A DNA stretch of 52,400 nt, taken from positions 1 through 52,400 of the forward strand of contig JAFQEB010000141.1 of NCBI GenBank assembly GCA_017399225.1. Direction: 5' to 3'. The translations under genes were made by a program, and so were the position numbers. Shown in pieces: positions 20,555 to 39,743 of this stretch (position 1 is the stretch's first letter; the number at the start of each line of letters is the position of its first letter). The DNA comes from Clostridia bacterium (GTDB taxonomy: Bacteria > Bacillota_A > Clostridia > Christensenellales > Aristaeellaceae). The notes below the pieces were generated by a model that was not told the origin of the DNA, did not search any database, and worked only from the letters and a program-made list of their open reading frames with translations.

Positions 20555-21478
20555 TTATTTGCGCTGGCTTTCATCATAGATCAGCCGGTACTGGGTGGGC
20601 GTGCAGCCCCGCACGTCGCGAAAAACGCGGTTGAAGGTAGCGATGGAGTTGAACCCGCACTGCAGCGCCACCTGCGTGACCGGGATCTTCGTGCCGGCCA
20701 GCAGCTCCTCCGCCATGGTGACGCGGCGCTTGTTGAGGTACTGGGTGAAGGTCATGCCCGTATGCTGGCGGAACATGCGGCTGAGGGTATAGCGGGAGAA
20801 GCCCGCATAGGCCGCCAGGCTGTCCAGCGTCACGTCGTCCATGTAATTCTCCATCACATAGTCCAGCGCGCGGTTGAAGGCGTCCTCGCCGGAAAGCTGA
20901 CGGTTGATGGCGTTGACCTCCGTCTGCGTCGCGGTGGTCATCAGGTAGTTCTCACCCAGCCGGGCGTACATCTCCAGCAGCAGCGCATAGCAGTGCATGT
21001 TGCGCAGCACGCTCTGGCTCCTGTAGACCGCGATGACCTCCATCAGCTTTTCCCTGGCCGCCGCGCACACAGGATGCTCCAGGTCCAGGTAGATGGGCCG
21101 GCTCAGCATCTGGCGGAAGGCGCCGAACTCCTTCAGGGTGAACACGCCATTCATCTCAAACAGCATCAGCTCCCGCTCGCTGCCCTCCTCCATTTTCAGG
21201 GAATGGGTGCAGCCCGCCGGGATGATCAGCACCTCGCCCTCTACCAGGCGGTACTGCCGCTTCTCGACCGCCGCGTGCAGCTCGCCCCGGGTGGGGATCA
21301 GCACCTCCACGGCGGAATGAAAGTGCGCATCGTAGGAATCCGGGATCACACCGTGCCAGATTCGGATGCTGGTATTGGCGGGATAAGTGATGAACTCATG
21401 CTGATCCTCCTTGAGCACACGGAACCCCATGTGGAACTGCTCCTTGTCCTCCTGGCTCACCAGTGGCTTCTGCTTCAT
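20555..21478 (-). CDS. AraC-family regulator of the importer locus
   Basis: 307 residues. N-terminal cupin sensor (SYDAHFHSAVEVLIPTRGEL, then GEVLIIPAGCTHSL), a helical linker, and two C-terminal helix-turn-helices (LDSLAAYAGFSRYTLSRMF; VTQVALQCGFNSIATFNRVF) typical of AraC sugar-utilisation regulators. A start at 21478 is chosen because GGAGG lies seven bases upstream; the longer frame to 21514 has no ribosome site. Transcribed away from the ten-gene importer locus across a 289-bp region, so it is the obvious candidate activator, responding to an imported oligosaccharide. Candidate direct repeats GGTATTNTA lie in that region. Confidence 0.92.
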   Translation of the reverse strand: MKQKPLVSQEDKEQFHMGFRVLKEDQHEFITYPANTSIRIWHGVIPDSYDAHFHSAVEVLIPTRGELHAAVEKRQYRLVEGEVLIIPAGCTHSLKMEEGSERELMLFEMNGVFTLKEFGAFRQMLSRPIYLDLEHPVCAAAREKLMEVIAVYRSQSVLRNMHCYALLLEMYARLGENYLMTTATQTEVNAINRQLSGEDAFNRALDYVMENYMDDVTLDSLAAYAGFSRYTLSRMFRQHTGMTFTQYLNKRRVTMAEELLAGTKIPVTQVALQCGFNSIATFNRVFRDVRGCTPTQYRLIYDESQRK

Positions 21479-21492
21479 ATCGCCGCCTCCTT

Positions 21493-21506
21493 TGGTAACG
21501 TTTTCG
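21493..21506. promoter_or_regulatory. Weak cre-like (CcpA) site
   Basis: TGGTAACGTTTTCG differs from the cre consensus TGNAANCGNWWNCA at two positions and lies just upstream of the AraC start. Low confidence by eye. Confidence 0.2.
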
Positions 21507-21609
21507 GAATTCATGTAAGGATTTACACAAAAAATCCGCTCCGGATATGTCTATCCTACCACAAACCTCAAGAACTTTCAAGCAAATTCTGACTTATACC
21601 GCGCAATTT

Positions 21610-21644
21610 TTGATAGGTATTTTACAAAGCCGGTATTGTATAAT
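21610..21644 (+). promoter_or_regulatory. Importer-locus promoter region with GGTATTNTA direct repeats
   Basis: A perfect TATAAT is at 21639-21644 without a well-spaced -35 box, as expected for an activator-dependent promoter. Just upstream and overlapping it, GGTATTTTA (21616) and GGTATTGTA (21632) are direct repeats with 16-bp periodicity. The same GGTATTNTA motif recurs at 35364 before the second binding protein. Proposed AraC operator; inference. Elsewhere in 21479-21767 nothing further is seen. Confidence 0.4.
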
Positions 21645-21767
21645 AAGGCTGGATAAAAACCGTTTTGGATATCTGGAATACATGAACCGGCGGATCCGAA
21701 CAAGCAGGCATCCGCTTTCATGTCTATTTCATATTTCCGGACAACGTAAGGAGGGCAAAAAGAGATC

Positions 21768-24700
21768 ATGGTGCGTTCATTTGTCAACAAGTACGGAAAA
21801 TGGATCGTCTCTGCCGTGATCGTACTGGCTCTTGCTCTGTGGTTCATCCTGTCCAACAACACAGAGAATTATGCGCATAAGTACGAAGGCGTGGATCTGA
21901 GCGTATCGACCGAGGGCATCGGCCGTGACAACACCTACGAGCTGTACCTGAGTGGCTCCATCATTCCCGCGGATATCTCTGCGGCGGAGCTGACGGGCGA
22001 GGCAGCATACCACACCAGCCTGGCTGTGACCGAGGCCGGCGTGGTTCTGACCGCCGAGGAGCTGCCCGAGGACGCCTCTGCCACCACGCTGGAGAACGGC
22101 ACGCCCTTCGAGCGCTACAGCAACGTGCTGGTGGCTGAGAACGGCGCGGGCGCGGCCTTCAAGGTCAGCGTGCCCACGGCCGGTCTGTACACCATCACCT
22201 TCAGCTATTCCGAGCTGAGCGAAACGCAGCTGGATCTGACCTCCATGCTGCTCAACGGCAGTACGCCGGTGGTGGAGACCTCCTCCTCCGCGGCGGATAC
22301 GCACGCTGCCCTCTACCGCCTGAATGCGGGTGAGAACACCGTCGCCGTTTCCTTTACCGGCCATACCGTCATCGATACCCTGAACGTTCAGGGCCCCGTG
22401 CGCAGCAATGCCGCCGAGGACGTGACGGTGGATCTGGCCGGCGTGGAGGCCGGCGAGGGCGTTGCCTACCACACCGCAGGCAGCATCACCAGCAAGGGCT
22501 ACTTCCTGCCCGGCGAGAATGCCCAGCCTTCCGACGCGGAAAAGCAGGGCGAAGTCATCCTGCAGGTGAAGAACGTCGTGCAGACCGACAGCGACTCCAG
22601 CGCCTCCTGGAAGGTGAACGTGCCGGCCAGCGGCTACTACAATGTGCAGCTGACCTACCTGACCACCCTCTCCCGCGGCGTTGACCTGGAGCGCGAGCTG
22701 CTCATCAACGGCGAGCTGCCCTTTGACGGCGCCAACAAGATGACCTTCTCCCGCATCTGGACCGATGGCCCCAAGCCCGAGAACGACACCCAGGGCAACG
22801 AGCGCCGTCCCCAGCAGGTGGAGGTGTTCGGCCGTGAGCAGAGCGCCTGGTGCCGCGACTCCATGGGCTATGTCACCGAGCCTTACCTGTTCTACTTCGA
22901 GGCCGGCGAAAACACCATCACCCTGAACGCCACGAGCGAGCCGATGCTGCTGACTGGCATCGCCCTCAAGGCCCCCACCCAGCGTCAGAGCTACGAGGAT
23001 TATCTGGCCGCCATCGGCGACAAGCCCCAGCCCGAGGGCCTCAAGTCCCTGGCGCCCATCGAGGGTGAAGCCAGCGTCCGCCGCTCCTCCCCCTCCCTGT
23101 ATGCCAAGTATGACCGTTCCTCCCCCGCCACCGTCCCCTATGACGTGGCCCACACCGTGCTCAACTACACCGGCGGCGACGCCTGGCGTGACGCCGGCCA
23201 GTGGATCGAGTGGGACTTCACCGTCGATCAGGCCGGCTGGTACAACATCACCATCAAGGGCCGCCAGACCTACAGCCGCGGCTCCGTCTCCAGCCGTATC
23301 GTTTATCTGGACGACCAGATTCTCTTCGACGGCATGGAGAACGTCGACTTTGCCTACTCCAGCAACTGGAACATGAACACCCTCTCCGATGCTGAGGGCA
23401 ACGCCTACCGCTTCTACCTGACCGAGGGCTCCCACAGGATCCGCATGGAGGCCACCCTGGGCGATATGGGCCCCATCCTCTCCGATATGGAGGAGAGCGT
23501 CTACCGCCTCAACAGCATGTACCGCAAGATCCTGGTGCTGACCGGCGTGACCCCCGACCAGTACCGCGATTACCATCTGGAGCAGAAGTATCCCGAGGTC
23601 ATCGCCGAGATGGATAAGGAGAGCAAGCGCCTGTTCAAGCTGCTCGACGACACCGTCGCCCTGACCGGCCAGAAGTCCGACCGCATTGCCTCCGTCCAGA
23701 CCCTGGCCCTGCAGCTGGAGACCTTCGTGGATGATCCCGCGGAGATCACCCAGGCCTTCACCAACTTCAAGGACAACATCACCTCCATCGGTACCTCCAT
23801 GCTGAACCTGCGCCAGGTTCAGCTGGATGTGGACCAGATCTACATCACCGCCGACGGCGAAAAGCCCGCTCAGCCCAACGAGGGCTTCCTGGCCAAGGCC
23901 TGGCACGAGATCGTCTCCTGCTTCACCTCCTACACGGTTGACTACAGCGCGCTGGGCAACGTGTACGAAGGCGACGACGTGCTGGAGGTGTGGATCGTGA
24001 CCGGCCGCGACCAGTCCAACGTGCTCAAGGCCATGGTCGACGATACCTTCACCAGCCTCACCGGCATCCCGGTCAACGTTATGCTGGTCGACCCCAACGC
24101 ACTTCTGAACGCCACCGTCGCCGGCAACGGCCCCGACGTGGTCGTCTCCACCGACAGCTGGAACCCCGTCAACTACGCCCTGCGCGGCGCGGCGGAGGAT
24201 CTGACCCAGTTTAACGCCGAGTTCGTGCAGAAGAACATCATCGACAAGTACGGCATCGACACCACCAAGGTAAGCGTGAAGCCCTACGACGAGGTGATGA
24301 CGCAGTTCTACCCCAGCGCCTACCAGGCCTTCAAGTTCATTGACGAGACCGGCCATGAGGGCGTGTACGCGCTGCCCGAGACGCAGCTGTGCTCCATCAT
24401 GTTCTACCGCAGCGACATCCTGGAAGAGTATGGCCTGGAGGTGCCCAGGACCTGGGACGCCCTGATCGCCATGCTGCCCACGCTGCAGGGCGCCAACATG
24501 TCCGTGGGTATCCCCTACCCGGACATCGTCGCCCCCAACCTGTCCAGCTTCTACTCCATGATCTATCAGCGCGGCGGCTCCATCTACAATGAGGACGCCA
24601 CCATGACCACCCTTAACGAGGAAGCAGCCGTTGCCGCCTTCGACATGTACACCTCCCTGTACAACGACTACGGCCTGCCGCTGATCTTCGACTTCGTCAG

Positions 24701-25340
24701 CCGCTTCCGTTCCGGCGAAATGCCCATCGGCATCTTCGACTACACCACCTTCAACACCCTGAACGTCTCCGCCCCCGAGATCCGCGGCCTGTGGGAGATC
24801 GCCGTCATGCCCGGCACCGCCAAGACCGATGAAAACGGCCAGCCCCTGCTGGATGAAAACGGCGAGCCCGTCATCGACCACGCCGGTCACACCCAGGGCG
24901 CCTGCTGCATGATGATCGCCACTGACGACGAAGCCATCAAGGCCCAGGCCTGGGCGTTCATGCAGTGGTGGGTCTCCACCGATGCGCAGGTCCGCTTCGG
25001 CCGTGAGATCGAGGCCATCCTGGGCTCCTCTGCCCGCTACGCCACGGCGAACATCGCCGCCATCGAGCAGCTGGCCTGGTCCGAGGATCAGCTGGACGTC
25101 ATCCGCGAGCAGATGAAGGTCGCCATCGGCTTCCGCGAGGTCGCCGGCGGCTACTACACCACCCGCCACATCACCAACGCCGTGCGTAAGGTCACCAACG
25201 AAAAGACTGACCCGCGCGAGACCCTCCTGGATTACGCGCGTACCATCAACGAGGAAATCGTAAAGAAGCGCGAGGAGTTTGGCCTGCCCGTTCCCGAGGA
25301 AGCCATCGAGGCGACCCGGAACGCCACGCCTACCAACTGA
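21768..25340 (+). CDS. Membrane-anchored substrate-binding protein with three carbohydrate-binding-like modules
   Basis: 1190 residues, about 2.5 times a normal sugar-binding protein. One N-terminal membrane helix (WIVSAVIVLALALWFIL, no cleavage site or lipobox) anchors it outside. Three beta-sandwich modules follow (~40-205, 230-415, 430-590), each with a core like ASGYYNVQLTYLTTLSRGVD or QAGWYNITIKGRQTYSRG and a late ITLNA/IRMEA strand, resembling CBM6/35-type folds. A helical spacer (~600-700) leads to a type-1 extracellular solute-binding domain (~730-1120) with ETQLCSIMFYRSDILEEYGL and the usual FMQWWVSTDAQ. First gene of the ABC locus; permeases follow 41 bp later. AAGGAGG lies 13 bases before the ATG. 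It probably captures oligosaccharide through several modules and delivers it to the permease pair (inference). Confidence 0.85.
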   Translation: MVRSFVNKYGKWIVSAVIVLALALWFILSNNTENYAHKYEGVDLSVSTEGIGRDNTYELYLSGSIIPADISAAELTGEAAYHTSLAVTEAGVVLTAEELPEDASATTLENGTPFERYSNVLVAENGAGAAFKVSVPTAGLYTITFSYSELSETQLDLTSMLLNGSTPVVETSSSAADTHAALYRLNAGENTVAVSFTGHTVIDTLNVQGPVRSNAAEDVTVDLAGVEAGEGVAYHTAGSITSKGYFLPGENAQPSDAEKQGEVILQVKNVVQTDSDSSASWKVNVPASGYYNVQLTYLTTLSRGVDLERELLINGELPFDGANKMTFSRIWTDGPKPENDTQGNERRPQQVEVFGREQSAWCRDSMGYVTEPYLFYFEAGENTITLNATSEPMLLTGIALKAPTQRQSYEDYLAAIGDKPQPEGLKSLAPIEGEASVRRSSPSLYAKYDRSSPATVPYDVAHTVLNYTGGDAWRDAGQWIEWDFTVDQAGWYNITIKGRQTYSRGSVSSRIVYLDDQILFDGMENVDFAYSSNWNMNTLSDAEGNAYRFYLTEGSHRIRMEATLGDMGPILSDMEESVYRLNSMYRKILVLTGVTPDQYRDYHLEQKYPEVIAEMDKESKRLFKLLDDTVALTGQKSDRIASVQTLALQLETFVDDPAEITQAFTNFKDNITSIGTSMLNLRQVQLDVDQIYITADGEKPAQPNEGFLAKAWHEIVSCFTSYTVDYSALGNVYEGDDVLEVWIVTGRDQSNVLKAMVDDTFTSLTGIPVNVMLVDPNALLNATVAGNGPDVVVSTDSWNPVNYALRGAAEDLTQFNAEFVQKNIIDKYGIDTTKVSVKPYDEVMTQFYPSAYQAFKFIDETGHEGVYALPETQLCSIMFYRSDILEEYGLEVPRTWDALIAMLPTLQGANMSVGIPYPDIVAPNLSSFYSMIYQRGGSIYNEDATMTTLNEEAAVAAFDMYTSLYNDYGLPLIFDFVSRFRSGEMPIGIFDYTTFNTLNVSAPEIRGLWEIAVMPGTAKTDENGQPLLDENGEPVIDHAGHTQGACCMMIATDDEAIKAQAWAFMQWWVSTDAQVRFGREIEAILGSSARYATANIAAIEQLAWSEDQLDVIREQMKVAIGFREVAGGYYTTRHITNAVRKVTNEKTDPRETLLDYARTINEEIVKKREEFGLPVPEEAIEATRNATPTN

Positions 25341-25381: not shown

Positions 25382-26320
25382 ATGACCACGTTCCTGAAAA
25401 AGTACTTCGCGCTCAGGAAGCGTAACACCATCATCGCGTGGGAAAAGGCGAAGCAGATGAAGTTCTGCTACGCCTTCCTGGCTCCCTACGCGGTGCTGTT
25501 CCTCGCGTTCTATATCCTGCCGATGCTCACGTCGATCTATTACAGCTTCACCTACTATAACATTCTGGAGCCCGCCAAGTTCGTCGGCGCCAGCAACTAC
25601 ATCGATCTGATCCTGAATGACGACGTGTTCCTCAAGGCCATCACCAACACCTTCACCCTGGCAGTCATCACCGGCCCCATCGGCTACATCCTGTCCTTTG
25701 GCTTCGCCTGGCTGATCAACGAGCTGCCCCGGTGGATCCGTACCCTCGCCGTGCTGATCTTCTACGCGCCGTCCATCGCGGGCAACGCGTACGCGATCTT
25801 CTCCATCATCTTCCGCGGCGACGCCTACGGTTACCTCAACTCCATCCTGATGAACCTGGGCATCATCAATACCCCCATCCTGTGGCTCACCACGCCGGAT
25901 TACATCATGCCCGTCATCATCATCGTCACGCTGTGGATGTCCATGTCCACCGGCTTCCTGTCCTTCGTGGCAGGCCTGCAGGGCGTTGACCGCGCCCAGT
26001 ACGAGGCCGGCTATGTGGACGGCATCCGCAACCGCTGGCAGGAGCTGTACTACATCACGCTCCCCAACATGAAGCCCATGCTGCTCTTCGGCGCGGTCAT
26101 GGCCATCACGCAGGCCTTCGGCGTTTGTGACGTGCCCATGGCGCTGGCTGGCTACCCCTCCACGGACTACGCCGCCCGCACCGTCGTCACGCACCTGTTC
26201 GACTACGGCTACACCCGCTTTGAAATGGGCTACGCATCCGCCATCGCCACGATGCTGTTCATCGTGATGATCCTGTGCAACAAGCTCATCCAGAGCGCGC
26301 TGCGAAAGGTGGGTACCTGA
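25382..26320 (+). CDS. Sugar ABC transporter permease, MalF/LacF type (half-system 1)
   Basis: 312 residues, six predicted membrane helices. N-terminal helix FLAPYAVLFLAFYILPMLTS, then FTYYNILEPAKFVGASNYID, the classic segment before helix 2 in MalF-type permeases. The cytoplasmic EAA loop reads YEAGYVDGIRNRWQELYYIT, which couples to an ATPase. AGGAGG lies 11 bases before the ATG. It is followed after one base by the partner permease, so the two form the heterodimeric channel for the 1190-aa binding protein. Confidence 0.93.
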   Translation: MTTFLKKYFALRKRNTIIAWEKAKQMKFCYAFLAPYAVLFLAFYILPMLTSIYYSFTYYNILEPAKFVGASNYIDLILNDDVFLKAITNTFTLAVITGPIGYILSFGFAWLINELPRWIRTLAVLIFYAPSIAGNAYAIFSIIFRGDAYGYLNSILMNLGIINTPILWLTTPDYIMPVIIIVTLWMSMSTGFLSFVAGLQGVDRAQYEAGYVDGIRNRWQELYYITLPNMKPMLLFGAVMAITQAFGVCDVPMALAGYPSTDYAARTVVTHLFDYGYTRFEMGYASAIATMLFIVMILCNKLIQSALRKVGT

Positions 26321-26321
26321 T

Positions 26322-27266
26322 ATGACGACAGTGAAGCATTACAAGGGCCCCGTTCGTGCAGACGGCACGCCCATCGCAGTACCCAAGAAGGTTCAGCGCC
26401 TGCAGCAGACCGCCAAGGCCAAGAACCGCAAGCCCAACCGTTCCCGCGTCGGCGACTTCCTGATCTACCTGATGCTGACCCTCGTCGCCTGCGCAATGGC
26501 CTTCCCGCTGGTATTCGCCATTTGCTCCTCCCTCAAGCCTCTGGATGAGCTGTTCCGCTTCCCGCCCACGCTCTTCCCCAGGCAGCCTACCTTCGATAAC
26601 TTCTCTGACCTGCTGGTCACCATGGGCCAGAGCTGGATCCCCTTCTCCCGCTACATCACCAACACCGTGTTCATCACCGTGGTGGGCACCTTCGGCAACG
26701 TGATCATCGGCTCCCTGGCCGCCTACGTCCTGGCGAAGTACGACTTCCCGCTGGGCAAGCCCTTCTTCAGCCTGGTCGTGACCGCCCTGATGTTCAACGG
26801 CTACGTTACCGCCATCCCCAACTACCTGCTGATGAGCAGTATGCGCATCGTGGATACCTACTGGGCCATCATCCTGCCCTCGCTGGCAGCGCCCATGGGC
26901 ATGTTCCTGATGAAGCAGTTCATGGAAGGCCTGCCGATGTCGCTGATCGAATCCGCGAAGATCGACGGCGCCAAGGAGCTGCGCATCTTCTGGCAGATCG
27001 TGATGCCCAACGTCAAGCCCGCCTGGCTGACGATGATCATCTTCTCCGTGCAGGGCCTGTGGAACTCCCGCGCCTCCACGGTCATCTACTCCGAGGCGAA
27101 GAAGACCCTGGTGTACGCGCTGCAGCAGATCCAGGCCGGCGGTATTGCCCGTACCGGTCAGGCCGCGGCGGTTACCGTGGTGGTCATGATCGTGCCCATC
27201 ATCACCTTCATCCTCTCCCAGAGCCAGATTCTTGAAACCATGGCCACCTCCGGCCTGAAGGACTAA
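26322..27266 (+). CDS. Sugar ABC transporter permease, MalG type (half-system 1)
   Basis: 314 residues with a basic cytoplasmic N-terminus (~40 residues, many Lys/Arg), then six helices. MalG features: PLVFAICSSLKPLDELFRFP, TNTVFITVVGTFGNVIIGSL, the EAA loop IESAKIDGAKELRIFWQIVM and the closing QSQILETMATSGLKD (MalG-type C-terminus LxxGLxxGAVK-like). Starts one base after the preceding stop and uses AAGGTGGG in the end of that gene as ribosome site. No ATPase follows; a shared MsmK/UgpC-type ATPase encoded elsewhere is expected. Confidence 0.93.
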   Translation: MTTVKHYKGPVRADGTPIAVPKKVQRLQQTAKAKNRKPNRSRVGDFLIYLMLTLVACAMAFPLVFAICSSLKPLDELFRFPPTLFPRQPTFDNFSDLLVTMGQSWIPFSRYITNTVFITVVGTFGNVIIGSLAAYVLAKYDFPLGKPFFSLVVTALMFNGYVTAIPNYLLMSSMRIVDTYWAIILPSLAAPMGMFLMKQFMEGLPMSLIESAKIDGAKELRIFWQIVMPNVKPAWLTMIIFSVQGLWNSRASTVIYSEAKKTLVYALQQIQAGGIARTGQAAAVTVVVMIVPIITFILSQSQILETMATSGLKD

Positions 27267-27289: not shown

Positions 27290-28789
27290 ATGAAGAACGC
27301 CATCCTGCGTCTTTCGGCTCTGCTGACTGCGGTATGCCTGCTCGCAGGTATCCCGCTGGCTTATGCGGCTGACGGCTATGATTACGCCTACACCTACACC
27401 TACGATTTCTGGAGCGATATGCGCTACTCCCCCGATGCATACCGCGTCAAGGATTTCCTGACCTCCGCATCCCTGGGGCTGGATAAGCCCATGGTGAACC
27501 CCCAGGGCCTGTTCGTGCGGGACAACGACATCTACGTCTGCGACACGGGCAACAACCGCATCCTGCAGATCCGGTATGAGAACGACAGCTACAGCCTGGT
27601 TCGCTACATCACCGAGTTCAAGGGCGATGCGCAGCCCCTGACCTTCGCCGCCCCCAGCGACATCTACGTGGGCGAGGACGGCATGATGTACATCGCCGAT
27701 ACCAACAACAACCGCGTCGTGAAGCTTGACCAGGAGCTGAACTACCAGCTCTCCTTCATCAAGCCCACCGACCCCACCTACGACCAGAGCAAGTCCTTCC
27801 TGCCCTCCAAGCTGGTCGCTGACGTCTCCGGCCGCGTGTTCTGCCTGGCCACCAACATCAACATGGGCCTGATGAAGTACGAGGCCGACGGCACCTTCAC
27901 CGGCTTCATCGGCGCGGCGCCGGTCAAGTACACCTGGTACGAGATCATCTGGCGCACCCTCTCCACCAAGGAGCAGCGCGCCCAGCAGGCCTCCCTGGTC
28001 GCCACCGAGTACGATAACATCGCCATCGACGAGAAGGGCTTCTTCTACGTCGTGACCCAGACCTTCGATGAGAATGAGCTCAAGAGCGGCGCGGCCGAAC
28101 CCATCCGCCGCCTGAACAGCCTGGGCACCAACATCCTCATCGAAAACGGCTCCTACCCCGCCATCGGCGATATCCAGTGGGCCGCCGGCAACCTGAACAT
28201 CACCAACTCCGGCCCGTCCCTGTTTGTGGACATCACCGTGCTGGACAACGGCATCTACGTTGCGCTGGACGAGAAGCACAACCGCCTCTTCGGCTATGAC
28301 CACCAGGGCAACATGCTGTGGGCCTTCGGCGGCCTGGGCAACGCGCTGGGCTACTTCAACCGCCCCACCGCCATCGAGCACATGGATCATGACCTGCTGG
28401 TGCTGGACGGCACTGCCGCCGCGCTGACCATCATGACCCCCACCGAGTACGGCAAGCTGATCTATCAGGCCAACGACCAGTACAGCCAGGGTCTGTACAA
28501 CGAGTCCGCTGAAACCTGGCAGAAGGTGCTGCAGCGCAACGGCAACTACGACCTGGCCTACATCGGCGTAGGCCGCGCCGAGCTGCAGAAGGGCAACTAC
28601 GCCACCGCCTGCGAGTACTTCAAGATGGCCCGCGACGACAAGAACTACTCCGAGGCCTTCCGCTACTACCGCAGCGAGCTGGTGGAGGATAACATCGGCT
28701 GGATCTTCGCCATTGCCGCAGTGGTCCTGGTCGTTCCCGCAGTGGTCGGCCGCCTCAAGAAGATTAAGTGGGAGGTGGACAACGCATGA
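27290..28789 (+). CDS. Secreted NHL-repeat / TPR protein with C-terminal membrane anchor
   Basis: 499 residues. Signal peptide with cleavage near PLAYA-ADG (26). NHL beta-propeller repeats follow, clearest at PQGLFVRDNDIYVCDTGNNR (~70-90), SDIYVGEDGMMYIADTNNNR (~125-145) and ITVLDNGIYVALDEKHNRLF (~317-336). Two to three TPR-like helix pairs occupy ~390-465 (YNESAETWQKVLQRNGNYDL, KGNYATACEYFKMARDD), then one helix (IGWIFAIAAVVLVVPAVVG) and a short basic tail. The propeller and TPRs thus face outside. The last bases overlap the Yip1-like gene (ATGA). No enzymatic motif is seen; an assembly platform or glycan-contacting scaffold for the importer is inference. Confidence 0.85.
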   Translation: MKNAILRLSALLTAVCLLAGIPLAYAADGYDYAYTYTYDFWSDMRYSPDAYRVKDFLTSASLGLDKPMVNPQGLFVRDNDIYVCDTGNNRILQIRYENDSYSLVRYITEFKGDAQPLTFAAPSDIYVGEDGMMYIADTNNNRVVKLDQELNYQLSFIKPTDPTYDQSKSFLPSKLVADVSGRVFCLATNINMGLMKYEADGTFTGFIGAAPVKYTWYEIIWRTLSTKEQRAQQASLVATEYDNIAIDEKGFFYVVTQTFDENELKSGAAEPIRRLNSLGTNILIENGSYPAIGDIQWAAGNLNITNSGPSLFVDITVLDNGIYVALDEKHNRLFGYDHQGNMLWAFGGLGNALGYFNRPTAIEHMDHDLLVLDGTAAALTIMTPTEYGKLIYQANDQYSQGLYNESAETWQKVLQRNGNYDLAYIGVGRAELQKGNYATACEYFKMARDDKNYSEAFRYYRSELVEDNIGWIFAIAAVVLVVPAVVGRLKKIKWEVDNA

Positions 28790-29451
28790 GTATCCTGACT
28801 GCACTGACGAACCGTCAGCGTTGGGCACGGTACTGGGATTCGCTGAAGTACGCGTTCTACACCATGTTCCACCCCTTTGACGGCTTCTGGGATCTGACCC
28901 ACGAGAAGCGCGGCTCCATGGCGGCGGCCCACACCATCGTCATCGCCGTTCTCATCGTCCGCCTCCTCGGCCTGGAGCACACTTCCTTCCTGTTCAACAA
29001 TGTTTACTGGCCCGAGGTCAACATCCTGCAGCAGTGCCTGAGCGTGCTGCTCCCGCTGGTGATCTTCGTGGTGGGCAACTGGGGCCTGACGACCCTGTTC
29101 GACGGCAAGGGCCGCCTCAAGGACGTCTACATGGGCACCTGCTACGCCCTGTTCCCCTACGTGCTGCTGCAGATCCCCATGATCATCCTGTCCAACTGGA
29201 TCACGGTGGATGAAGCCAGCTTCTACACGATCCTCAACACGCTCAGCCTGATCTGGGCCGGCGGCCTGATCGTCTGCGGCATGATGATGATCCACGACTA
29301 CAGCCTGGCCAAGACCCTGCTGTTCATCGTCATGACCATCTTCGCCATGGCCGTCATCATCTTCCTGATCCTGCTGTTCTTCACCCTGGTCGGCGACGGC
29401 GTCGGCTACTTCACCTCCATCTATAAGGAGATCACGTTCAGACTCTATTGA
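28786..29451 (+). CDS. Yip1-family membrane protein
   Basis: 221 residues with about five hydrophobic helices. N-terminal amphipathic YWDSLKYAFYTMFHPFDGFW is typical of the start of bacterial Yip1-domain proteins (FxxPxxGFxxL). Further signatures: NWGLTTLFDGKGRLKDVYMG and CYALFPYVLLQIPM. Function unknown. The ATG overlaps the stop of the NHL/TPR gene and has GGAGG ten bases upstream, so translation is coupled; a DUF5696 gene follows 21 bp later. Co-occurrence with sugar ABC genes suggests a membrane accessory subunit (inference). Confidence 0.82.
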   Translation: MSILTALTNRQRWARYWDSLKYAFYTMFHPFDGFWDLTHEKRGSMAAAHTIVIAVLIVRLLGLEHTSFLFNNVYWPEVNILQQCLSVLLPLVIFVVGNWGLTTLFDGKGRLKDVYMGTCYALFPYVLLQIPMIILSNWITVDEASFYTILNTLSLIWAGGLIVCGMMMIHDYSLAKTLLFIVMTIFAMAVIIFLILLFFTLVGDGVGYFTSIYKEITFRLY

Positions 29452-32100: not shown

Positions 32101-34250
32101 AAGGCAACCGTAAGGCTGACATGCCCAATGCGCAGAAGCCGATCAAATCCTCCTTCATCAGCCGGCTCCCGATGAAGACCCGGCGCTCCATCTCCGGCTA
32201 CCTGTTCATCATGCCCTTCATCATCGGCTTCCTGTTCTTCATGGTTTCGCCGCTGGTGATGTCCCTGCAGATGAGCTTCAGCCGTGTCAACTCCGACACC
32301 ATCCAGCCCAACAACTTCTACATGGATTCCTACCTGGGCTACGGCCCGGAGGTCGAGCTCAGCAAGGAGATCGTGCTGCCCGAGACGCTCCGGTATGATC
32401 CGGCCAGGTACGAGGAGCGCGAGTACGTTGTCGAGCCCGTTGACGAGGTGCTCACCCTCAAGAGCGACTTCGCTTACGACCACACCGTTTCTCTCGACCG
32501 GAAGATCGACCTGCCCAGCTACGTCTGGTACAATCCCTACGACCTCCAGGAGGGCAAGTACAACGTCGAGCCCCTCAAGAGCTTCCTGGATCTGGGCACC
32601 GCCTTCACCTTCAGCAACAACGTGGTGCTGAGCGAGAAGATCCCCCTGCCCAGGGAGTACCAGTACAACAAGATGCTGGAGAAGGACGGCGTCAATGCTG
32701 TGGAGCTCTCCGCTTCCATCCTCTCCCTGGACGCCAAGTTCACCTTCGGCAAGCGCATCGCGGTCAGCAAGGCCATCGACCTGCCCGAAGGCTACCACTA
32801 CCTCCCCGAGGAGGAGCTGTCCGCGGCGGATAAGGAAGCCGGCACGCAGTACATCGTGGCTGACAACGGCGAGAACATCCCCGTTTCCTTCGCGGTGTAC
32901 CTGTTCGAAAACGGCCTGACCACCCAGCTGAAGGCTGCAGTGGAGGCCGTGAAGCCCGATACCACCGTTCGCTTCACCAAGACTGCGGTGTATGACAAGG
33001 CGCTGTATGAGGCCGAGGGCCAGTTCGTGGTCAAGGCTGTGGTGCCCGTCGACTTCGCCGTCTACATGCTGGACAACGGCTACCTGCCTCAGTTTGCTGA
33101 GGCAGTGGCGGCTGTCAAGGGCATGGCCAGCGCGGATGAGCTGAACCTGCCCGAGTACTTCACCTACGACCGTGAGCTGTTCAATAGCAAGAAGAACCTG
33201 ACGATCCAGGTGGCGGATGACGAGGCGGCTGTGCCCACCAAGTTCGCCGCGTACCTGATCGACAACGGCCACAGCGATCTGTTCTACACGACCGCCGACG
33301 TGGTCGCCAACAGCACCGCCGTGTGCGCCCTGTACAAGCCGGAATACGATGCACAGCAGCAGTTGACCGGCTTCGGCGCGGAGCTGCCCGCGGCCATCAT
33401 CTACGACGCTGACCTCTTCGCCAAGCAGGGGATCATCGACGTCAAGCTGAATGCGCCCCAGGTGCCCTTCTCCTTTGCCGGCACGCTCCTGTCCAACGGC
33501 CTGTTCTTCGAGACCATCCTGGATCTGCTGGGCCTGGACAACTACGTGCACATGCTGACCGTTGACCCCAAGTTCAACCAGCTGCTGATCGACGAGATCA
33601 CCAAGATGGTGATCCACACCATCGCCATCCTGGTCGTTTCCTTCGTCATCGCCATCCTGCTGAACCAGGAGTTCAAGGGCCGTGCCTTCGTCCGTGCGAT
33701 CTTCTTCCTGCCGGTCATCCTCTCCAGCGGCGTGCTGGTGAACCTGGAGGCCGACAACAGCCTGATGCAGGGCCTGCAGGATCTGATCTCCGAGCAGACG
33801 CCCTTCACCGTGACGGACTCCATGATGGAGATCCTCCGTCTGACCGGCCTGGGCGGCGACCTGCTGGACATCATCTTCGACCTGATCGCCGAGGTCTACG
33901 ATATCGTCATGGCCTCCGGTATCCAGATCGTCGTGTTCCTCTCCGGCCTGCAGAACGTGCCCGCCAGCCTCTATGAGGCGGCTGACGTGGAGGGCTGCAC
34001 CAAGTGGGAGTCCTTCTGGAAGATCACCTTCCCGCTGGTCTCTCCCCTGCTGATCGTCAACATCATTTACACGATCATCGACTTCTTCACCAAGATGGGC
34101 GGCGATCTGTCTCGCATGATGGACGACGCGCTGCTGAGGATGGAATATGACTACATGTCTGCCATGTCCTGGCTGTACTTCCTGGTGACGCTGGCTCTGA
34201 TCGGCATCAGCGCACTGATCGTTTCAAAGGTGGTGGCTTCCGATGAGTAA
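32097..34250 (+). CDS. Sugar ABC permease with ~400-residue repetitive extracytoplasmic insertion (half-system 2)
   Basis: 717 residues against ~300 for the family. Helix 1 (YLFIMPFIIGFLFFMVSPLV) and MSLQMSFSR are ordinary MalF type; the canonical pre-helix-2 segment LGLDNYVHMLTVDPKF occurs only at ~477. Everything between (~70-476) is an insertion outside the membrane made of about seven degenerate ~45-60-residue repeats with the core LPxxxxYDxxLY, the later ones ending VPxxFAxYLxxNG. Helices 2-6 then follow with the coupling loop YEAADVEGCTKWESFWKITF. The start is GTG, overlapping the previous TGA, with GGAGG seven bases upstream. The insertion probably docks a binding protein or accessory component, like the smaller MalF P2 loop (inference). 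Confidence 0.88.
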   Translation: MKGNRKADMPNAQKPIKSSFISRLPMKTRRSISGYLFIMPFIIGFLFFMVSPLVMSLQMSFSRVNSDTIQPNNFYMDSYLGYGPEVELSKEIVLPETLRYDPARYEEREYVVEPVDEVLTLKSDFAYDHTVSLDRKIDLPSYVWYNPYDLQEGKYNVEPLKSFLDLGTAFTFSNNVVLSEKIPLPREYQYNKMLEKDGVNAVELSASILSLDAKFTFGKRIAVSKAIDLPEGYHYLPEEELSAADKEAGTQYIVADNGENIPVSFAVYLFENGLTTQLKAAVEAVKPDTTVRFTKTAVYDKALYEAEGQFVVKAVVPVDFAVYMLDNGYLPQFAEAVAAVKGMASADELNLPEYFTYDRELFNSKKNLTIQVADDEAAVPTKFAAYLIDNGHSDLFYTTADVVANSTAVCALYKPEYDAQQQLTGFGAELPAAIIYDADLFAKQGIIDVKLNAPQVPFSFAGTLLSNGLFFETILDLLGLDNYVHMLTVDPKFNQLLIDEITKMVIHTIAILVVSFVIAILLNQEFKGRAFVRAIFFLPVILSSGVLVNLEADNSLMQGLQDLISEQTPFTVTDSMMEILRLTGLGGDLLDIIFDLIAEVYDIVMASGIQIVVFLSGLQNVPASLYEAADVEGCTKWESFWKITFPLVSPLLIVNIIYTIIDFFTKMGGDLSRMMDDALLRMEYDYMSAMSWLYFLVTLALIGISALIVSKVVASDE

Positions 34251-35301
34251 AAAGAATATTGCCCATTCGCGTCCCACCGAGAGCTTCTGGGTGCGAAACA
34301 AGAAGTCCCGCGGCTATCTGCTGAAGAAGGAAGCCGGCAACAAGGCCTACAAGTTCATCCGCTTCCTGCTGCTCTTCGGCCTGTGCTTCATGATCGTGCA
34401 GCCGCTGCTGTCCAAGCTGTCGGTGTCCTTCATGATCGAGGATGACCTGTACGATTCCACCATCATCTCCATCCCCCGCCACCTGACGACGCAGAACTAT
34501 GAGGATCTGGCCAATTACCCCGCGCTGATGCACTACTGGCCTGCCCTGGGCAACACGCTGTTCATCAGTACCGTCGTTTCCCTGCTCCAGGTCGCATCCG
34601 CCACGCTGGTGGGCTACGGCTTCGCCCGCTTCAAGTTCCCGCTGAAGAAGTTCTGGTTCTTTGCGGTCATCCTGACGGTCATCATCCCCCCGCAGACCAT
34701 CTCCACCGCGCTGCACCTGACCTTCTCCCATTTCGATCCCTTCGGCATCGTCAGCTCCTTTACAGGCGGCGACACCATCAATCTGCTGAGTAAGGATTTC
34801 TATCTGAACCTCGGCTTCATCTCCATCCCGGTCCCCTACTTTGCCATGTCTGCCACCTGTCAGGGTCTGAAGAACGGTCTGTACATCTACATGATCCGTC
34901 AGTTCTTCGCCGGCGTGCCGGTCTCCCTGGAGGAAGCCGCCTATGTGGACGGCTGCTCCACCTTCAAGACCTTCTGGCGCGTCATCCTGCCCGACGCGGT
35001 GCCGATCCTGGTCTCCTGCTTCCTCTTCGCCTTCGTCTGGCAGTGGACGGACACCTTCTACACGAAGATGTTCATCAAAGACTCCTCCCTGCCCATGCTG
35101 AGCATGAAGCTCTCCGGTCTGGGAGAAGCCACCGGCAAATGGAAGGAAACCATGACCTACACCGGCAACGTGGCGACCATGGGCCACAAGCAGCAGTTCG
35201 TCTCCACCGGTACGCTGATGGTCATCGCGCCGCTGCTGATCCTGTACCTGTTTGCCCAGAAGGGCTTCGTGGAGTCCATTTCCTCCACCGGCCTGAAGTA
35301 A
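34243..35301 (+). CDS. Sugar ABC transporter permease, MalG type (half-system 2)
   Basis: 352 residues. After a basic N-terminal ~45 residues, six helices with MalG-type features: GNTLFISTVVSLLQVASATL, GYGFARFKFPLKKFWFF, EAA loop LEEAAYVDGCSTFKTFWRVI and the closing GFVESISSTGLK. Compared with its paralogue in half-system 1 it has longer extracytoplasmic segments (after helix 1, and around LTFSHFDPFGIVSSFTGGDT). The gene overlaps the preceding permease by eight bases and uses AAGGTGG. It should form a heterodimer with the 717-aa permease. Confidence 0.93.
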   Translation: MSKKNIAHSRPTESFWVRNKKSRGYLLKKEAGNKAYKFIRFLLLFGLCFMIVQPLLSKLSVSFMIEDDLYDSTIISIPRHLTTQNYEDLANYPALMHYWPALGNTLFISTVVSLLQVASATLVGYGFARFKFPLKKFWFFAVILTVIIPPQTISTALHLTFSHFDPFGIVSSFTGGDTINLLSKDFYLNLGFISIPVPYFAMSATCQGLKNGLYIYMIRQFFAGVPVSLEEAAYVDGCSTFKTFWRVILPDAVPILVSCFLFAFVWQWTDTFYTKMFIKDSSLPMLSMKLSGLGEATGKWKETMTYTGNVATMGHKQQFVSTGTLMVIAPLLILYLFAQKGFVESISSTGLK

Positions 35302-35375: not shown

Positions 35376-35417
35376 CAATCCCACTTCGTTCTTGGTCCCA
35401 TAATTAGCGTTGGTTGC

Positions 35418-35516
35418 GAGCGGGCGTGCAGCGTCCATCAGCCGGAAAAGCCGCAGGGTATTGGAATGCGGCCCGGAGGCTGATCCCCATGCTGCTGAGC
35501 GCTGCCCCGCCCGCTC
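35418..35516 (+). promoter_or_regulatory. Structured RNA element in the leader of the second binding protein
   Basis: Nested complementary segments, all perfect: GAGCGGGC (35418-35425) with GCCCGCTC (35509-35516); GCAGCG (35428-35433) with CGCTGC (35500-35505); TCAGCC (35438-35443) with GGCTGA (35478-35483); GCCGCA (35450-35455) with TGCGGC (35467-35472). This makes one long four-helix arm of about 100 nt, ending 47 bases before the start codon. It does not resemble a riboswitch class I know. It could be an RNA-stability or processing element raising expression of the binding protein over the permeases, or an unrecognised regulatory RNA. Confidence 0.55.
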
Positions 35517-35563
35517 CACCGGCGATTATCGGGCGAGAAATAAATATTCAAGGAGGTTTTCCC

Positions 35564-36946
35564 ATGAAGAAGACTCTGGCTATGATCCTGGCGATCATGA
35601 TGCTGCTGGCTGTCGTTCCCGCGATGGCTGAGGGCGTCGAGAACCCCTACGAAGAGTACGGCGTTGAGATCTACACCGACGAGAACGGTGAAGTGATCGA
35701 CCTGGGCGGCATGGAAATCGTTATCTGCGACTGGTGGTCCTCTGACTGGCACGACAACATCGGCAATGCCACCACCTCTGCTGCTGAAGCTACCGAGGAG
35801 TACCGTCTGTGGCTGGAAGAGACCTACAACTTCACCATCAAGCAGGCCGCTGCTACCACCTGGGGCAACTCCCCCACGGACTTCAACGACATCGCCGTGG
35901 CTGGCACCGACATCAACTATGTCTGGATCCTCCGTCCCGGCGCCTGGCTGCAGCCCATGAACGCTGGCCTGTTCTACGACCTGGCCACCCTGGACTGCCT
36001 GGACTTCACCGCCGAGAAGTGGAACCCCGTCATCCGTGACCTGGCCACCAAGGGCGACTCCATCCTGGCCATGCGTCCCGAAGCCGCTGAGGCTCGTAAG
36101 GGCATCTTCTTCAACAAGCGTCTGCTGGCCGAGGCTGGCGTTGATCCCGAGTCCCTGTACGACATGCAGGCCAACGGCACCTGGACCTGGGAAGCTTTCG
36201 AAGAGCTCCTGGCCAAGCTGCACCGCGACACTGACAACGACGGTATCGTTGACAAGTACGCCATGATGTCCTTCTCCTCTCACCTGCTGCCCGCCGCGGT
36301 TACCTCCAATGGCGTGGGCTTCGTCGGCGTTGACGAGAACGGCAAGTATGTGAACACCGCTGAGACCGACGCCTTCCTCGAGGCTATGAACTGGGCGGTT
36401 GACCTGGTCAAGAAGTACGAGATGGCCGCTCCCGAAGGCGCTGAGTGGAACTACTTCGAGTCCGCCTTCATCAACGGTGAAGTTGCGATCCAGTGCCACG
36501 AAGAGTACTTCTCCGGCTCCCTGGCCAACATGGAAGACGACTACGGCTTCGTGATGTTCCCCAAGGGCCCCAAGGCTGATACCTACAAGTGGTCCCCCCA
36601 GGACAACGTGTGGGTCATCCCCGCGAACTACGACGCCGAGCGCGCCTGGAAGATCGCTTTCGCCTTCAACCTCTTCACCAACCCCACCCCCGGCTATGAA
36701 GAGACCGACGACTGGAAGACCGGCTTCTACGGCAAGTACCGCGACGACCGCGCTGTGGACGAGACCATCTCCATGATGCGTGACGGCGCCACCCAGATGG
36801 TGTGGTACACCGACATGATCGCCGGCTACGATCTGGGCGCCGACTACATCTGGGACGTGTACGGCCAGGCTGCGACCCCCGCGGAGCAGGCTGAAGCTAT
36901 GCGCGGCACCTGGCAGGCTTACATCGACGCTGCCAACGGCAACTAA
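35564..36946 (+). CDS. Extracellular solute-binding protein for oligosaccharides (half-system 2)
   Basis: 460 residues. Signal peptide KKTLAMILAIMMLLAVVPAM, cleavage after AMA; there is no lipobox Cys, unusual for a Gram-positive binding protein. The mature part begins with an acidic ENPYEEYGVEIYTDENGEV strand, then the type-1 fold: EIVICDWWSSDWHDN, GIFFNKRLLAEAGVDPESLY, WTWEAFEELLAKLHRDTDND (family signature, with a DTDNDGIVDKYA Ca-like loop) and INGEVAIQCHEEYF. Many Trp/Tyr residues suit sugar stacking. AAGGAGG lies eight bases before the ATG. Separated from the permeases by 262 bp with a structured RNA, and followed by a strong terminator, so it may be produced at a higher level. Confidence 0.92.
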   Translation: MKKTLAMILAIMMLLAVVPAMAEGVENPYEEYGVEIYTDENGEVIDLGGMEIVICDWWSSDWHDNIGNATTSAAEATEEYRLWLEETYNFTIKQAAATTWGNSPTDFNDIAVAGTDINYVWILRPGAWLQPMNAGLFYDLATLDCLDFTAEKWNPVIRDLATKGDSILAMRPEAAEARKGIFFNKRLLAEAGVDPESLYDMQANGTWTWEAFEELLAKLHRDTDNDGIVDKYAMMSFSSHLLPAAVTSNGVGFVGVDENGKYVNTAETDAFLEAMNWAVDLVKKYEMAAPEGAEWNYFESAFINGEVAIQCHEEYFSGSLANMEDDYGFVMFPKGPKADTYKWSPQDNVWVIPANYDAERAWKIAFAFNLFTNPTPGYEETDDWKTGFYGKYRDDRAVDETISMMRDGATQMVWYTDMIAGYDLGADYIWDVYGQAATPAEQAEAMRGTWQAYIDAANGN

Positions 36947-36990
36947 TCGATCAAACCTGACCCCTAATCGCATTCCAAGGTAAACCACCT

Positions 36991-37023
36991 GGGCGGGATA
37001 GCACTCGCTATCCCGCCCTTTTT
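36991..37023 (+). terminator. Strong rho-independent terminator after the binding-protein gene
   Basis: Perfect 12-bp stem GGGCGGGATAGC (36991-37002) / GCTATCCCGCCC (37007-37018), loop ACTC, then TTTTT. It separates the importer genes from GH10-GH43, at least partially. Confidence 0.92.
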
Positions 37024-37180
37024 GTACCCAGAGCACGTTATTTTACGCACTTTGGGTACAGAAAAGGGACTTCGTCCCGTTTTGGCGCTGCTGCGCAGTG
37101 CAGTTCCATTGCGGGAGTCCCGTCGCGCAATGGGCGCGACGCGACGCATAAACCGGAGCCGATACAGTGGTATACCACGC
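37023..37180. repeat. Hairpin chain upstream of the GH10-GH43 gene
   Basis: TGTACCCA/TGGGTACA (37023-37030, 37053-37060), GGGACTTCGTCCC (37066-37078), CCATTGCG/CGCAATGG (37106-37113, 37126-37133) and the palindrome GTGGTATACCAC (37167-37178). No clear promoter could be placed. Confidence 0.6.
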
Positions 37181-37232
37181 CTTCATGGCTTATCCCGGAT
37201 TGATACGAGCACACTTAAAGGAGGAATTCCCC

Positions 37233-39743
37233 ATGAGCGCTTATCAGGATTATCTTGCCGCCGGCCGTGCCGAGGCCATCCCCTCCCTCAAGGAGTTCTA
37301 TAAGGATGACTTCCACATCGGCGCGGCGGTCGCCCCCCACTGGATGTTCCGCCCGGATTGCGACGGCGCGCTGCGCAAGCACTTCTCCAGCCTGACGGCC
37401 GAGAACGTGATGAAGCCCTGCGAGGTGCTGGATCATGCCGCCACCCTGGCCTCCGGCAGCGAGACCCGCGCCGCCTTCAACTTCGCGCCTGCCGAGCCCA
37501 TTATGGCCTACGCGAAGAAGAACGGCATGGCCGTGCGCTTCCACACCCTGGTGTGGCACAACCAGACCCCCCGCTGGTTCTTTACAGAGGGCTGGTCCGA
37601 CGCGCCCGACGCGCCCCTTGCTGACCGCGAGACGATGATCCGCCGCCTGGAGAATTCCATCGCGGACGAGATGGACTACGTTAACCGCACCTGGCCCGGC
37701 CTGGTCTACGCCTGGGACGTGGTCAACGAGGCCATCGAGCCCGACCACGAGGCCCCGAACATGTTCCGCACCAAGAGCCTGTGGTATCAGATCCTGGGCG
37801 AGGACTTTGTGTTCATCGCCTTCCGCGAGGCCCGCAAGCACCAGGCCGAGGGCCAGAAGCTCTACTACAACGACTTCAACGTCGCCATGCCCAACAAGGT
37901 AGACTGGGTCTACAGCCTGGTCAAGCGCCTCGACGACGAGGGCACGGTGGACGGCGTCGGCTTCCAGACCCACATCGGCCTGGACTACCCGGACTTCGCC
38001 GACTACGAGGCTGCCATCCGCCGTTACGCCGCCCTGGGCCTGACCATCCAGTCCACGGAGATGGATATCCGCGTGCCCGGCGCCGATCCCGCCAGCCAGA
38101 TGAAGCTGGCCGTGCGCTACCGCGACTACTTCGCCATGATGCGCCGCCTGCGCCGCGAGGGCTGTGACATCGACAGCATCACCCTCTGGGGCCTGGCGGA
38201 TGACACCAGCTGGATCATGGGCTGGAACGGCCCCAACTACCCCCTGTTCTTCGACGGTATGCTGCGCCCCAAGGCTGCCCTCTTCGGCGCGCTGCTGGAT
38301 GAGGCCATCCCCGCCACCTATGAGGACGTGCAGGAGCCGGAGGTCGTCGCCCCCGAAAAGTGCATGAAGGACGTGCATCACCACAACCCCGTCATGACCC
38401 AGCGCTTCGGCGCTGACCCCTGGGCGATGCCCTACAACGGCCGCGTGTACCTGTACATGACCGGCGACTTCTACGAGTACAAGGACGACGGCTCCGTCGG
38501 CCCCAACCACTACGGCAGCATCAATAAGCTGCACTGCCTCTCCTCCGACGACCTGGTCAACTGGGTCGATCACGGGGTGATCCCCGCAGCCGGCCCCTTC
38601 GGCGCGGCCAAGTGGGCCCGCAACAGCTGGGCCCCCGCCGCCGCCCATAAGGTGATCGACGGCAAGGAGAAGTTCTTCCTCTACTTCGCCGACAGCGGCA
38701 ACGGCATCGGCGTCCTGGAGGCGGACAGCCCCACCGGCCCCTTCCGTGATCACCTGGGCCACGCGCTGATCAACCGCCACACCCCGAACTGCGCCTCCGT
38801 CACCTGGCTCTTCGACCCCGCCGTGCTGGTGGATGACGACGGCACCGGCTACATCTACGTCGGCGGCGGCGTGCCCGAGGGCCGCGCGGCTGACCCCGGC
38901 ACCGCCCGCTGCTGCCAGCTGGGCGAGGACATGATCTCCCTCGTCGGCGAGCCCCAGCCCTTCAACCCGCCGTGGCTCTTTGAGGACAGCGGCATCGTGA
39001 AGATCGGCAGCAAGTACGTCTACAGCTACTGCACCAACTTCTCCGTGCCTGCGGGCACCCCCGGTTTCCAGAACGGCGAGATCCACACCATGATTTCTGA
39101 CAAGCCCCTGGGCCCCTTCTCCTACGCCGACCGCGTGCTGAAGAACCCGGAGGATTACTTCGGCACCGGCGGCAACAACCACCACTGCATGTTCCAGTTC
39201 GGCGGCAAGTGGTACATCGCCTACCACAACCAGACCCTGGAGCGCACCATCGGCGTGGGCAGCGGCTACCGCTGCACCTTCATTGACCGCATGGACGTGC
39301 AGGAGGACGGCCGCATCGCCATGATCGAGGGCACCTACGAGGGCGTGGAGCAGCTGAAGGCCTTCGACCCCTACTGCACCTTCCCTGCCGCGACGGCGGC
39401 CGCCCTGGCCGGCGTGACCACCATGCCCACCCGCGCTGGCATGTGCCTGTACACCCAGGTGCCCGCCGGCTGGACGATGCTCTCCGGCGTGGACTTCGAT
39501 GAGGGCGCTAAGTCCCTGACGGCGTCCTACAGCTGCGTGTGCGACTGCAAGATCTCCGTGGTGCTGGATGACGTCAGCAACGCCCCCGTGGCGGAGCTCA
39601 GCCTCCCCCGTCCCGGCTGGGGCGTGCGCGGCCCCATCGAGGCTGCCTGCGAGCTGTCCGATGGCATTTCCGGCAAGCACGATGTGTACTTCATCTACAG
39701 CGCCCCGGCGATGCGGGTGATCTCCTACCGCTTCGACCGCTAA
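37233..39743 (+). CDS. Bifunctional GH10 xylanase - GH43 beta-xylosidase/arabinofuranosidase
   Basis: 836 residues, no signal peptide, so intracellular. GH10 domain (~20-365): VRFHTLVWHNQTPRWF, acid/base in YAWDVVNEA (Glu166), nucleophile in IQSTEMDIRV (Glu276), LWGLADDTSW. GH43 five-bladed propeller (~380-700): base Asp395 in RFGADPWAM, Asp528 in FDPAVLVDDDGTGYIYVGGG, acid Glu584 in LFEDSGIVKIGSKYV. A final ~110-residue beta domain (DFDEGAKSLTASYSC) resembles CBM6/CBM36-like tails. The start has AAAGGAGG nine bases upstream. Last gene of the locus. Cytoplasmic GH10 enzymes typically act on imported short xylo-oligosaccharides, and GH43 trims xylose or arabinose, which supports xylan fragments as the importer substrate (inference). 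Confidence 0.93.
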   Translation: MSAYQDYLAAGRAEAIPSLKEFYKDDFHIGAAVAPHWMFRPDCDGALRKHFSSLTAENVMKPCEVLDHAATLASGSETRAAFNFAPAEPIMAYAKKNGMAVRFHTLVWHNQTPRWFFTEGWSDAPDAPLADRETMIRRLENSIADEMDYVNRTWPGLVYAWDVVNEAIEPDHEAPNMFRTKSLWYQILGEDFVFIAFREARKHQAEGQKLYYNDFNVAMPNKVDWVYSLVKRLDDEGTVDGVGFQTHIGLDYPDFADYEAAIRRYAALGLTIQSTEMDIRVPGADPASQMKLAVRYRDYFAMMRRLRREGCDIDSITLWGLADDTSWIMGWNGPNYPLFFDGMLRPKAALFGALLDEAIPATYEDVQEPEVVAPEKCMKDVHHHNPVMTQRFGADPWAMPYNGRVYLYMTGDFYEYKDDGSVGPNHYGSINKLHCLSSDDLVNWVDHGVIPAAGPFGAAKWARNSWAPAAAHKVIDGKEKFFLYFADSGNGIGVLEADSPTGPFRDHLGHALINRHTPNCASVTWLFDPAVLVDDDGTGYIYVGGGVPEGRAADPGTARCCQLGEDMISLVGEPQPFNPPWLFEDSGIVKIGSKYVYSYCTNFSVPAGTPGFQNGEIHTMISDKPLGPFSYADRVLKNPEDYFGTGGNNHHCMFQFGGKWYIAYHNQTLERTIGVGSGYRCTFIDRMDVQEDGRIAMIEGTYEGVEQLKAFDPYCTFPAATAAALAGVTTMPTRAGMCLYTQVPAGWTMLSGVDFDEGAKSLTASYSCVCDCKISVVLDDVSNAPVAELSLPRPGWGVRGPIEAACELSDGISGKHDVYFIYSAPAMRVISYRFDR

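Follow-up and report, generated by a model that had tools for sequence, protein, structure and literature searches.

The uptake of fibre fragments by Gram-positive gut and soil bacteria through ATP-binding cassette (ABC) transporters is usually modelled as the task of one solute-binding protein (SBP) and one permease pair. Here we analyzed an importer locus in a 52,400-nucleotide stretch of DNA from a Clostridia bacterium of the family Aristaeellaceae (contig JAFQEB010000141.1, positions 1 to 52,400), which we call the window, and compared it with the closest described systems. With importers of the carbohydrate uptake transporter 1 (CUT1) type, which are MalFG/UgpAE-like, the locus shares SBP_bac_1 proteins, BPD_transp_1 permeases with EAA-like loops and the lack of an adjoining ATPase of its own; the two EAA-loop permeases plus SBP by which a CUT1 system is recognized are present. 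It differs from them in having two permease pairs, three conserved accessory proteins and a transmembrane (TM)-anchored SBP1 with arms that resemble carbohydrate-binding modules (CBM). The Bacteroidota polysaccharide utilization locus (PUL) of the SusCD type would resemble it in combining surface capture, import and an intracellular enzyme, whereas our locus uses ABC permeases, and no SusC/SusD-type Pfam family was found among the proteins scanned. The initial annotation of the window proposed a Gram-positive functional counterpart to a PUL. Such a Gram-positive PUL (gpPUL) has been defined as a degrading enzyme, a transport system and a regulator in one locus (PMC5320581), and by Pfam all three are found here as a GH10-GH43 glycoside hydrolase (GH), SBP and permease families and an AraC regulator. 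The comparison holds, but gpPULs already have their name and what is new is the module inside: the definition is silent on this module, and the term NHL was not found in the main text of that paper. The module seems to represent a novel variant among CUT1 importers. A literature search on DUF5696, Yip1 and NHL together with transporters, covering few subscription papers and preprints, gave no description of it; DUF5696 was not mentioned in the literature searched, with most subscription papers and preprints outside the coverage, and neither NHL nor Yip1 was found in the available portion of a Paenibacillus JDR-2 transcriptome paper.

At the core of the locus lies a deeply conserved set of eight proteins, namely SBP1, the permeases P1a and P1b, an NHL/TPR protein, a Yip1-like protein, DUF5696 and the permeases P2a and P2b, around which SBP2 proteins, the regulator and cargo-specific enzymes are exchangeable. 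We think it probable that these eight work together as a single functional unit for import, in which SBPs and CBM-like arms capture the substrate, one ATPase is shared by two ABC channels, a protein with a GH fold is a further receptor, and propeller and Yip1 make up the scaffold. The features, in window coordinates, are the following.

20555..21514, minus strand: AraC-family regulator with a sensor domain of the cupin type, transcribed divergently to the operon (Pfam HTH_18, AraC_binding)
21768..25340, plus strand: SBP1, membrane-anchored solute-binding protein (Pfam CBM35, SBP_bac_1)
25382..26320, plus strand: P1a permease with EAA loop (BPD_transp_1)
26322..27266, plus strand: P1b permease with EAA loop (BPD_transp_1)
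27290..28789, plus strand: NHL beta-propeller/TPR protein (Pfam NHL and TPR_16, the latter under the curated cut-off; hydropathy)
28786..29451, plus strand: Yip1-like integral membrane protein, five predicted TM segments (Pfam Yip1; hydropathy; sequence)
29473..32100, plus strand: DUF5696, N-terminal TM anchor and GH129-type fold (PF18952; structure model; fold matches; hhalign)
32097..34250, plus strand: P2a permease with EAA loop and an insert of ~430 residues (BPD_transp_1; TM scan; EAA sequence)
34243..35301, plus strand: P2b permease with EAA loop (BPD_transp_1)
35564..36946, plus strand: SBP2, exchangeable solute-binding protein with a signal-like segment (SBP_bac_1)
36991..37018, plus strand: terminator-like hairpin between SBP2 and GH10-GH43, 12 pairs followed by TTTTTG
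37233..39743, plus strand: GH10-GH43 enzyme, probably cytoplasmic (Pfam; sequence; hydropathy)
39763..39797, plus strand: terminator-like hairpin after GH10-GH43, 15 pairs

From SBP1 to GH10-GH43 all genes run in one direction, and the Pfam identities of the translated genes agree with the initial annotation, which had described two SBP/permease/permease sets flanking the NHL/TPR, Yip1 and DUF5696 genes in one run and no ATPase. Indeed, no ABC ATPase was found among the 39 different open reading frames (ORFs) scanned in Pfam, which are part of the ORFs of the window. Judged from the sequence, the likely starts are 28786 for Yip1, 35564 for SBP2 and 37233 for GH10-GH43; reference sequences that start at 28783 and 35561 contain one extra codon at the 5' end. 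The strong terminator-like hairpin at 36991-37018 parts GH10-GH43 from SBP2, so that the enzyme gene is probably transcribed on its own or with attenuation.

For the comparison with related loci, a DUF5696 alignment was scanned against contigs that cover 84,980 species by a single genome per species, and the loci were annotated by BLASTP and hidden Markov models; 537 places were confirmed, and the best 80 of them, the nearest relatives, form the close set. These nearest loci lie in Clostridia metagenome-assembled genomes (MAGs) from ruminant guts, and the closest named DUF5696 relative (P0003, 80% identity) comes from an Aristaeellaceae MAG; the window, too, therefore probably stems from a gut genome of this sort. 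SBP1, P1a, P1b, NHL and Yip1 are all kept, in this order, in 65 of the 65 close loci with at least 6.7 kb upstream, P2a is found in 80/80, and P2b in 76 of the 76 with at least 1.75 kb downstream. SBP2 follows in 68 of the 80 close loci, and 10 of the 12 loci without it end within 3.4 kb. The distant loci were read as 30 short and 20 wide stretches; 11 of the wide loci are already among the short ones, so that together they give 38 distinct DUF5696 genes besides L081 (the same as L076). Where measured, the identity of the distant DUF5696 proteins to that of the window is 23-38%, L081 included. In all 30 short loci the matches to Yip1, DUF5696, P2a and P2b stand side by side, the Yip1 match being part of a larger ORF in several. 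The full order, with SBP1-P1a-P1b upstream, is seen in 16 of the 20 wide loci; in three the SBP1-P1a-P1b block lies downstream, hence rearranged, and in one it is absent from the stretch. P2a, P2b and NHL were found in 20/20 wide loci (in L128, NHL and P2a were assigned by a relaxed rule only), and Yip1 appears as a separate match in 15 of them and as an NHL fusion in the remaining five. The co-occurrence of half-systems and accessory genes elsewhere, on which the initial annotation had staked its proposal, is thus found in the close loci and, in order, in most of the distant ones.

The same association is seen at the level of genomes. Among 398 genomes sampled from the phylum, for which up to three candidates per genome were scored and G001 was picked as the centre since it is DUF5696-positive, DUF5696 exceeded the cut-off in 39 genomes and reached E <1e-100 in 37; G303 and G326, just over the cut-off, are excluded from the 37. 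At least three DUF5696 copies are present in eight of these 37. The part of SBP1 ahead of its SBP domain was modelled and run on the same genomes, and it was found in 37/37 strong-DUF5696 genomes (in G104 partially, at a contig start). Among the 361 others it gave a strong match in only two, G105 and G155, whose contigs, 3,788 and 4,307 bases long, break off within P1a, together with five partial matches (G008, G055, G094, G128 and G158; E 1e-34 to 1e-49) and six weak ones. The co-occurrence of 37/37 versus 2/361 corresponds to a Fisher p of about 4e-50, kinship not being corrected for. As a contrast, GH10 is over the cut-off in 30 of the 37 module genomes and in 14 of the 361 others; it is associated with the module, yet lies outside the unit. 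From this data we conclude that physical linkage is the rule and not absolute, while joint presence in the genome is nearly absolute. Chance neighbourhood is ruled out by the order in close and distant loci and by this co-occurrence. G008, G094 and G128 hold partial SBP1-like proteins (L151, L152, L153, L154 and L155), and G008 and G128 also carry weak DUF5696-like ORFs: in both, a solitary SBP1-like SBP (432 aa) has in its vicinity an ORF of 662-663 aa with weak likeness to DUF5696, a pair that is possibly a split relative of the module.

In the 66 loci, out of 100, that contain the complete set of nine parts, the distance matrices of SBP1, P1a, NHL, Yip1, DUF5696, P2a and P2b correlate with r 0.89-0.97. 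SBP2 is the most divergent part (median identity 0.36) and correlates with these seven at r 0.84-0.90, and the values for P1b (r 0.55-0.79) are lowered by longest-ORF starts that overlap P1a. NHL and Yip1 form one ORF at 24 loci, 22 of them distinct.

The chief rival reading, to which we give somewhat less than an even chance, sees two ordinary independent CUT1 importers that share a regulon, with the accessory proteins serving one of them, most likely P2. It overlaps with the functional module that we favor and denies physical joint action. Each permease pair does carry its own EAA-like loops: the motif is present in 66/66 P1a and 38/38 P1b length-filtered sequences and in 76/76 P2b sequences, window included, and in 75/75 P2a relatives; the P2a of the window, which is not among the 75, itself shows the EAA sequence by TM scan and sequence. 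The tightest unit is Yip1-DUF5696-P2a-P2b. Several arrangements speak against a joint module, as do one point each on DUF5696 and on cargo that are given below. The order of the halves is swapped in L121, L125 and L126, and the halves are apart in six stretches: SBP1-P1a-P1b is missing from L117, L144, L147 and L150, which hold NHL-Yip1-DUF5696-P2a-P2b, and stands alone in L140 (8886-13885) and L143 (5629-10800) with no DUF5696 in the stretch. In L146, SBP1 has no permeases of its own nearby, and no SBP2 was detected in L013 and L024, although both stretches are long enough to include it. Additionally, joint inheritance and order do not prove physical assembly. The independence of the two importers is, in turn, hard to square with the presence of SBP1 in every DUF5696 genome, given that the two strong exceptions lie on contigs ending in P1a, and with distances that correlate between the halves about as well as within a half. 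The genomes behind L117, L140, L143, L144, L146, L147 and L150 hold both halves.

The initial annotation had taken the tight gene overlaps as a sign of stoichiometric assembly. We confirm an ATGA overlap of NHL and Yip1 (28786-28789), a GTGA overlap of DUF5696 and P2a (32097-32100) and 8 bases shared by P2a and P2b; the overlaps stop short of SBP2, because a 262-base gap lies ahead of it. As the halves are apart in some genomes, such overlaps are poor proof that all parts assemble. That the eight proteins form one physical two-channel ABC machine, with four permeases, a shared ATPase, a retired GH-fold receptor and a propeller-Yip1 bridge, we regard as doubtful. The several readings are not mutually exclusive, and the likelihoods that we give them are not meant to add up to one.

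SBP1 has a TM segment at residues 10-28 and no lipobox was seen in it; CBM35/CBM6-like beta-sandwiches and a helical part precede its SBP domain. Residues of about 50-250 are an extra part that is rare in relatives. The top Foldseek match of the SBP1 model, 5x7o (E 2.1e-10), was set aside at a TM-score of 0.14, and just a CBM35-like domain is claimed. In sequence, SBP2 weakly resembles UspC (E 5.3e-6) and an arabino-oligosaccharide-binding protein (E 5.8e-6), and its position varies between loci: it is upstream, downstream, in several copies (L116) or lacking. The SBP2 of the window has a signal-like segment without a lipobox Cys, and a lipobox-like pattern is present in 35 of the 63 sequences of the SBP2 set. 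The P2a insert (~430 residues, about 55-490) is extracytoplasmic, lies between TM1 and TM2 and contains repeated LP..Y-type units; P2a is equally long in L003 and L004 and not in L001 and L002. By hydropathy, the NHL/TPR protein has an N-terminal hydrophobic, signal-like segment and a C-terminal TM segment at 469-487.

In DUF5696 a GH129-type fold spans nearly the whole ectodomain, according to the structure model and fold comparison, and hhalign aligns residues 365-861 with GH129 (Prob 97.6, E 2.6e-12). This fold, together with an Asp in the nucleophile column, would suit an active exo-glycosidase, anchored in the membrane, by which side chains are trimmed ahead of import, a reading we consider unlikely. 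The GH129 Pfam model PF11308 is absent from the 14 families matched by 26 DUF5696 members at E up to 10, a scan in which the HMMER filters drop most matches above about 0.1. In the column alignment with GH129, which is uncertain at near 25% identity, Asp664 falls on the nucleophile column and Arg705 on that of the acid/base Glu, which we take to be Glu478 in NagBb. The nucleophile column holds Asp in 73/80 close relatives and in just 15 of the 38 distinct distant genes; the acid/base column holds Glu in 0/80 close relatives (Lys in 35, Asn in 28, Arg in 13), and Glu in 9/38 and Asp in 6/38 of the distant genes. With PF11308 unmatched and the acid/base Glu not kept, an ordinary GH129 enzyme was rejected. 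DUF5696 also differs from the GH129/GH101 enzymes NagBb, ZgGH129 and EngBF in its membrane anchor and its coupling to an importer. On the other side, D732 (79/80 close, 35/38 distant) and E768 (74/80, 37/38) are highly conserved, and DUF5696 could be catalytic via other conserved acids, E492, D672, D732 and E768. Moreover, ZgGH129-like enzymes are reported to be active without the NagBb acid/base residue (PMC5698469). The surface trimming assumed in the initial annotation finds no support here: DUF5696 lacks the GH129 acid/base residue and GH10-GH43 has no N-terminal hydrophobic segment. A metagenomic protein, P0061 (1156 aa), has DUF5696 fused to the P2a permease; this fusion was not used, as it would link a C-terminus lying outside to an N-terminus lying inside, and an error in a single base would account for it.

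The GH10-GH43 enzyme is probably cytoplasmic, as judged by hydropathy, no signal-peptide program being applied. The cargo in the window is likely an (arabino)xylo-oligosaccharide, because this neighbouring enzyme has no signal-like segment and also adjoins the module in close relatives. The xylan-oligosaccharide import of the initial annotation is in this sense retained for the window, but it does not hold for the module at large, which has no fixed tie to xylan; GH10 is not over the cut-off in seven of the 37 module genomes, and a xylan-dedicated module was rejected on these numbers. The neighbours were scanned for 87 hand-picked, mostly downstream ORFs out of 191 on the same strand of at least 280 aa (of 317 of at least 230 aa) in the close set and for 63 of 82 ORFs of at least 230 aa in the distant set, neighbour families being taken from the 25 that head the lists of 62 and 81, respectively. 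Among the families listed, GH10 was seen in 15/87, GH43 in 11/87 and GH5 in 6/87 close neighbours, while the distant neighbours are mixed, with two each of GH26 and GH3 and one each of GH10, GH30 and pectate lyase among 63. Individual records vary as well. On pNP243 of Butyrivibrio fibrisolvens D1 the module is accompanied by GH43, two further SBPs and a two-component system. A Paenibacillus cellulosilyticus plasmid (L158) carries the module, with fused NHL-Yip1, and one gene annotated as a UgpC ATPase; the neighbours of this copy include LLM flavin oxidoreductases and aldo/keto reductases, and no glycoside hydrolase is annotated in the stretch read. Because the neighbouring genes vary in this way, the cargo seems to differ between module copies. 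The Paenibacillus copy and the seven genomes lacking GH10 over the cut-off would also suit a module that imports a non-sugar, with glycan enzymes as neighbours by lineage. We hold this to be very improbable in view of the CBM35-like arm of SBP1, the GH fold of DUF5696 and the GH10, GH43 and GH5 neighbours; the LLM and aldo/keto reductase genes resemble, and presumably would fit, those for the breakdown of sulfoquinovose, which is a sugar.

In the functional module that we favor, SBP1, with its CBM-like arms and membrane anchor, and SBP2 would capture oligosaccharides. DUF5696, anchored beside P2a/P2b, may hold the glycan as a GH-fold binding protein without cutting it, and NHL-TPR-Yip1 would serve as a membrane scaffold. 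Both permease pairs would draw on one shared MsmX/UgpC-type ATPase, expected elsewhere in the genome. The imported (arabino)xylo-oligosaccharide would then be cut inside the cell by GH10-GH43, with the AraC regulator in control.

Next to the AraC gene, an alpha-galactosidase-like gene (Melibiase_2, 18782-20299) lies on the strand of the operon, with the divergent regulator between them. Elsewhere the window contains three tandem M42 peptidase genes (11671-14899), a CotH kinase protein containing three stretches of lamin tail domain (45250-48549), adjoined by a region with a VTC-domain protein and a DUF4956 protein (43427-45128), and a NUDIX-GNAT fusion protein (48793-49797). Neither a tRNA nor, at the gathering threshold, a match to Rfam was found in the window.

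If true, the single machine would be a new carbohydrate-import architecture, found in about one in ten of the genomes sampled from the phylum (37/398). A conserved set of eight proteins at this frequency would mean that an import route common in rumen and gut Clostridia and in Paenibacillus has so far gone unnamed. DUF5696 gains a fold and a testable role, and the NHL and Yip1 proteins become genetically testable in the context of import.

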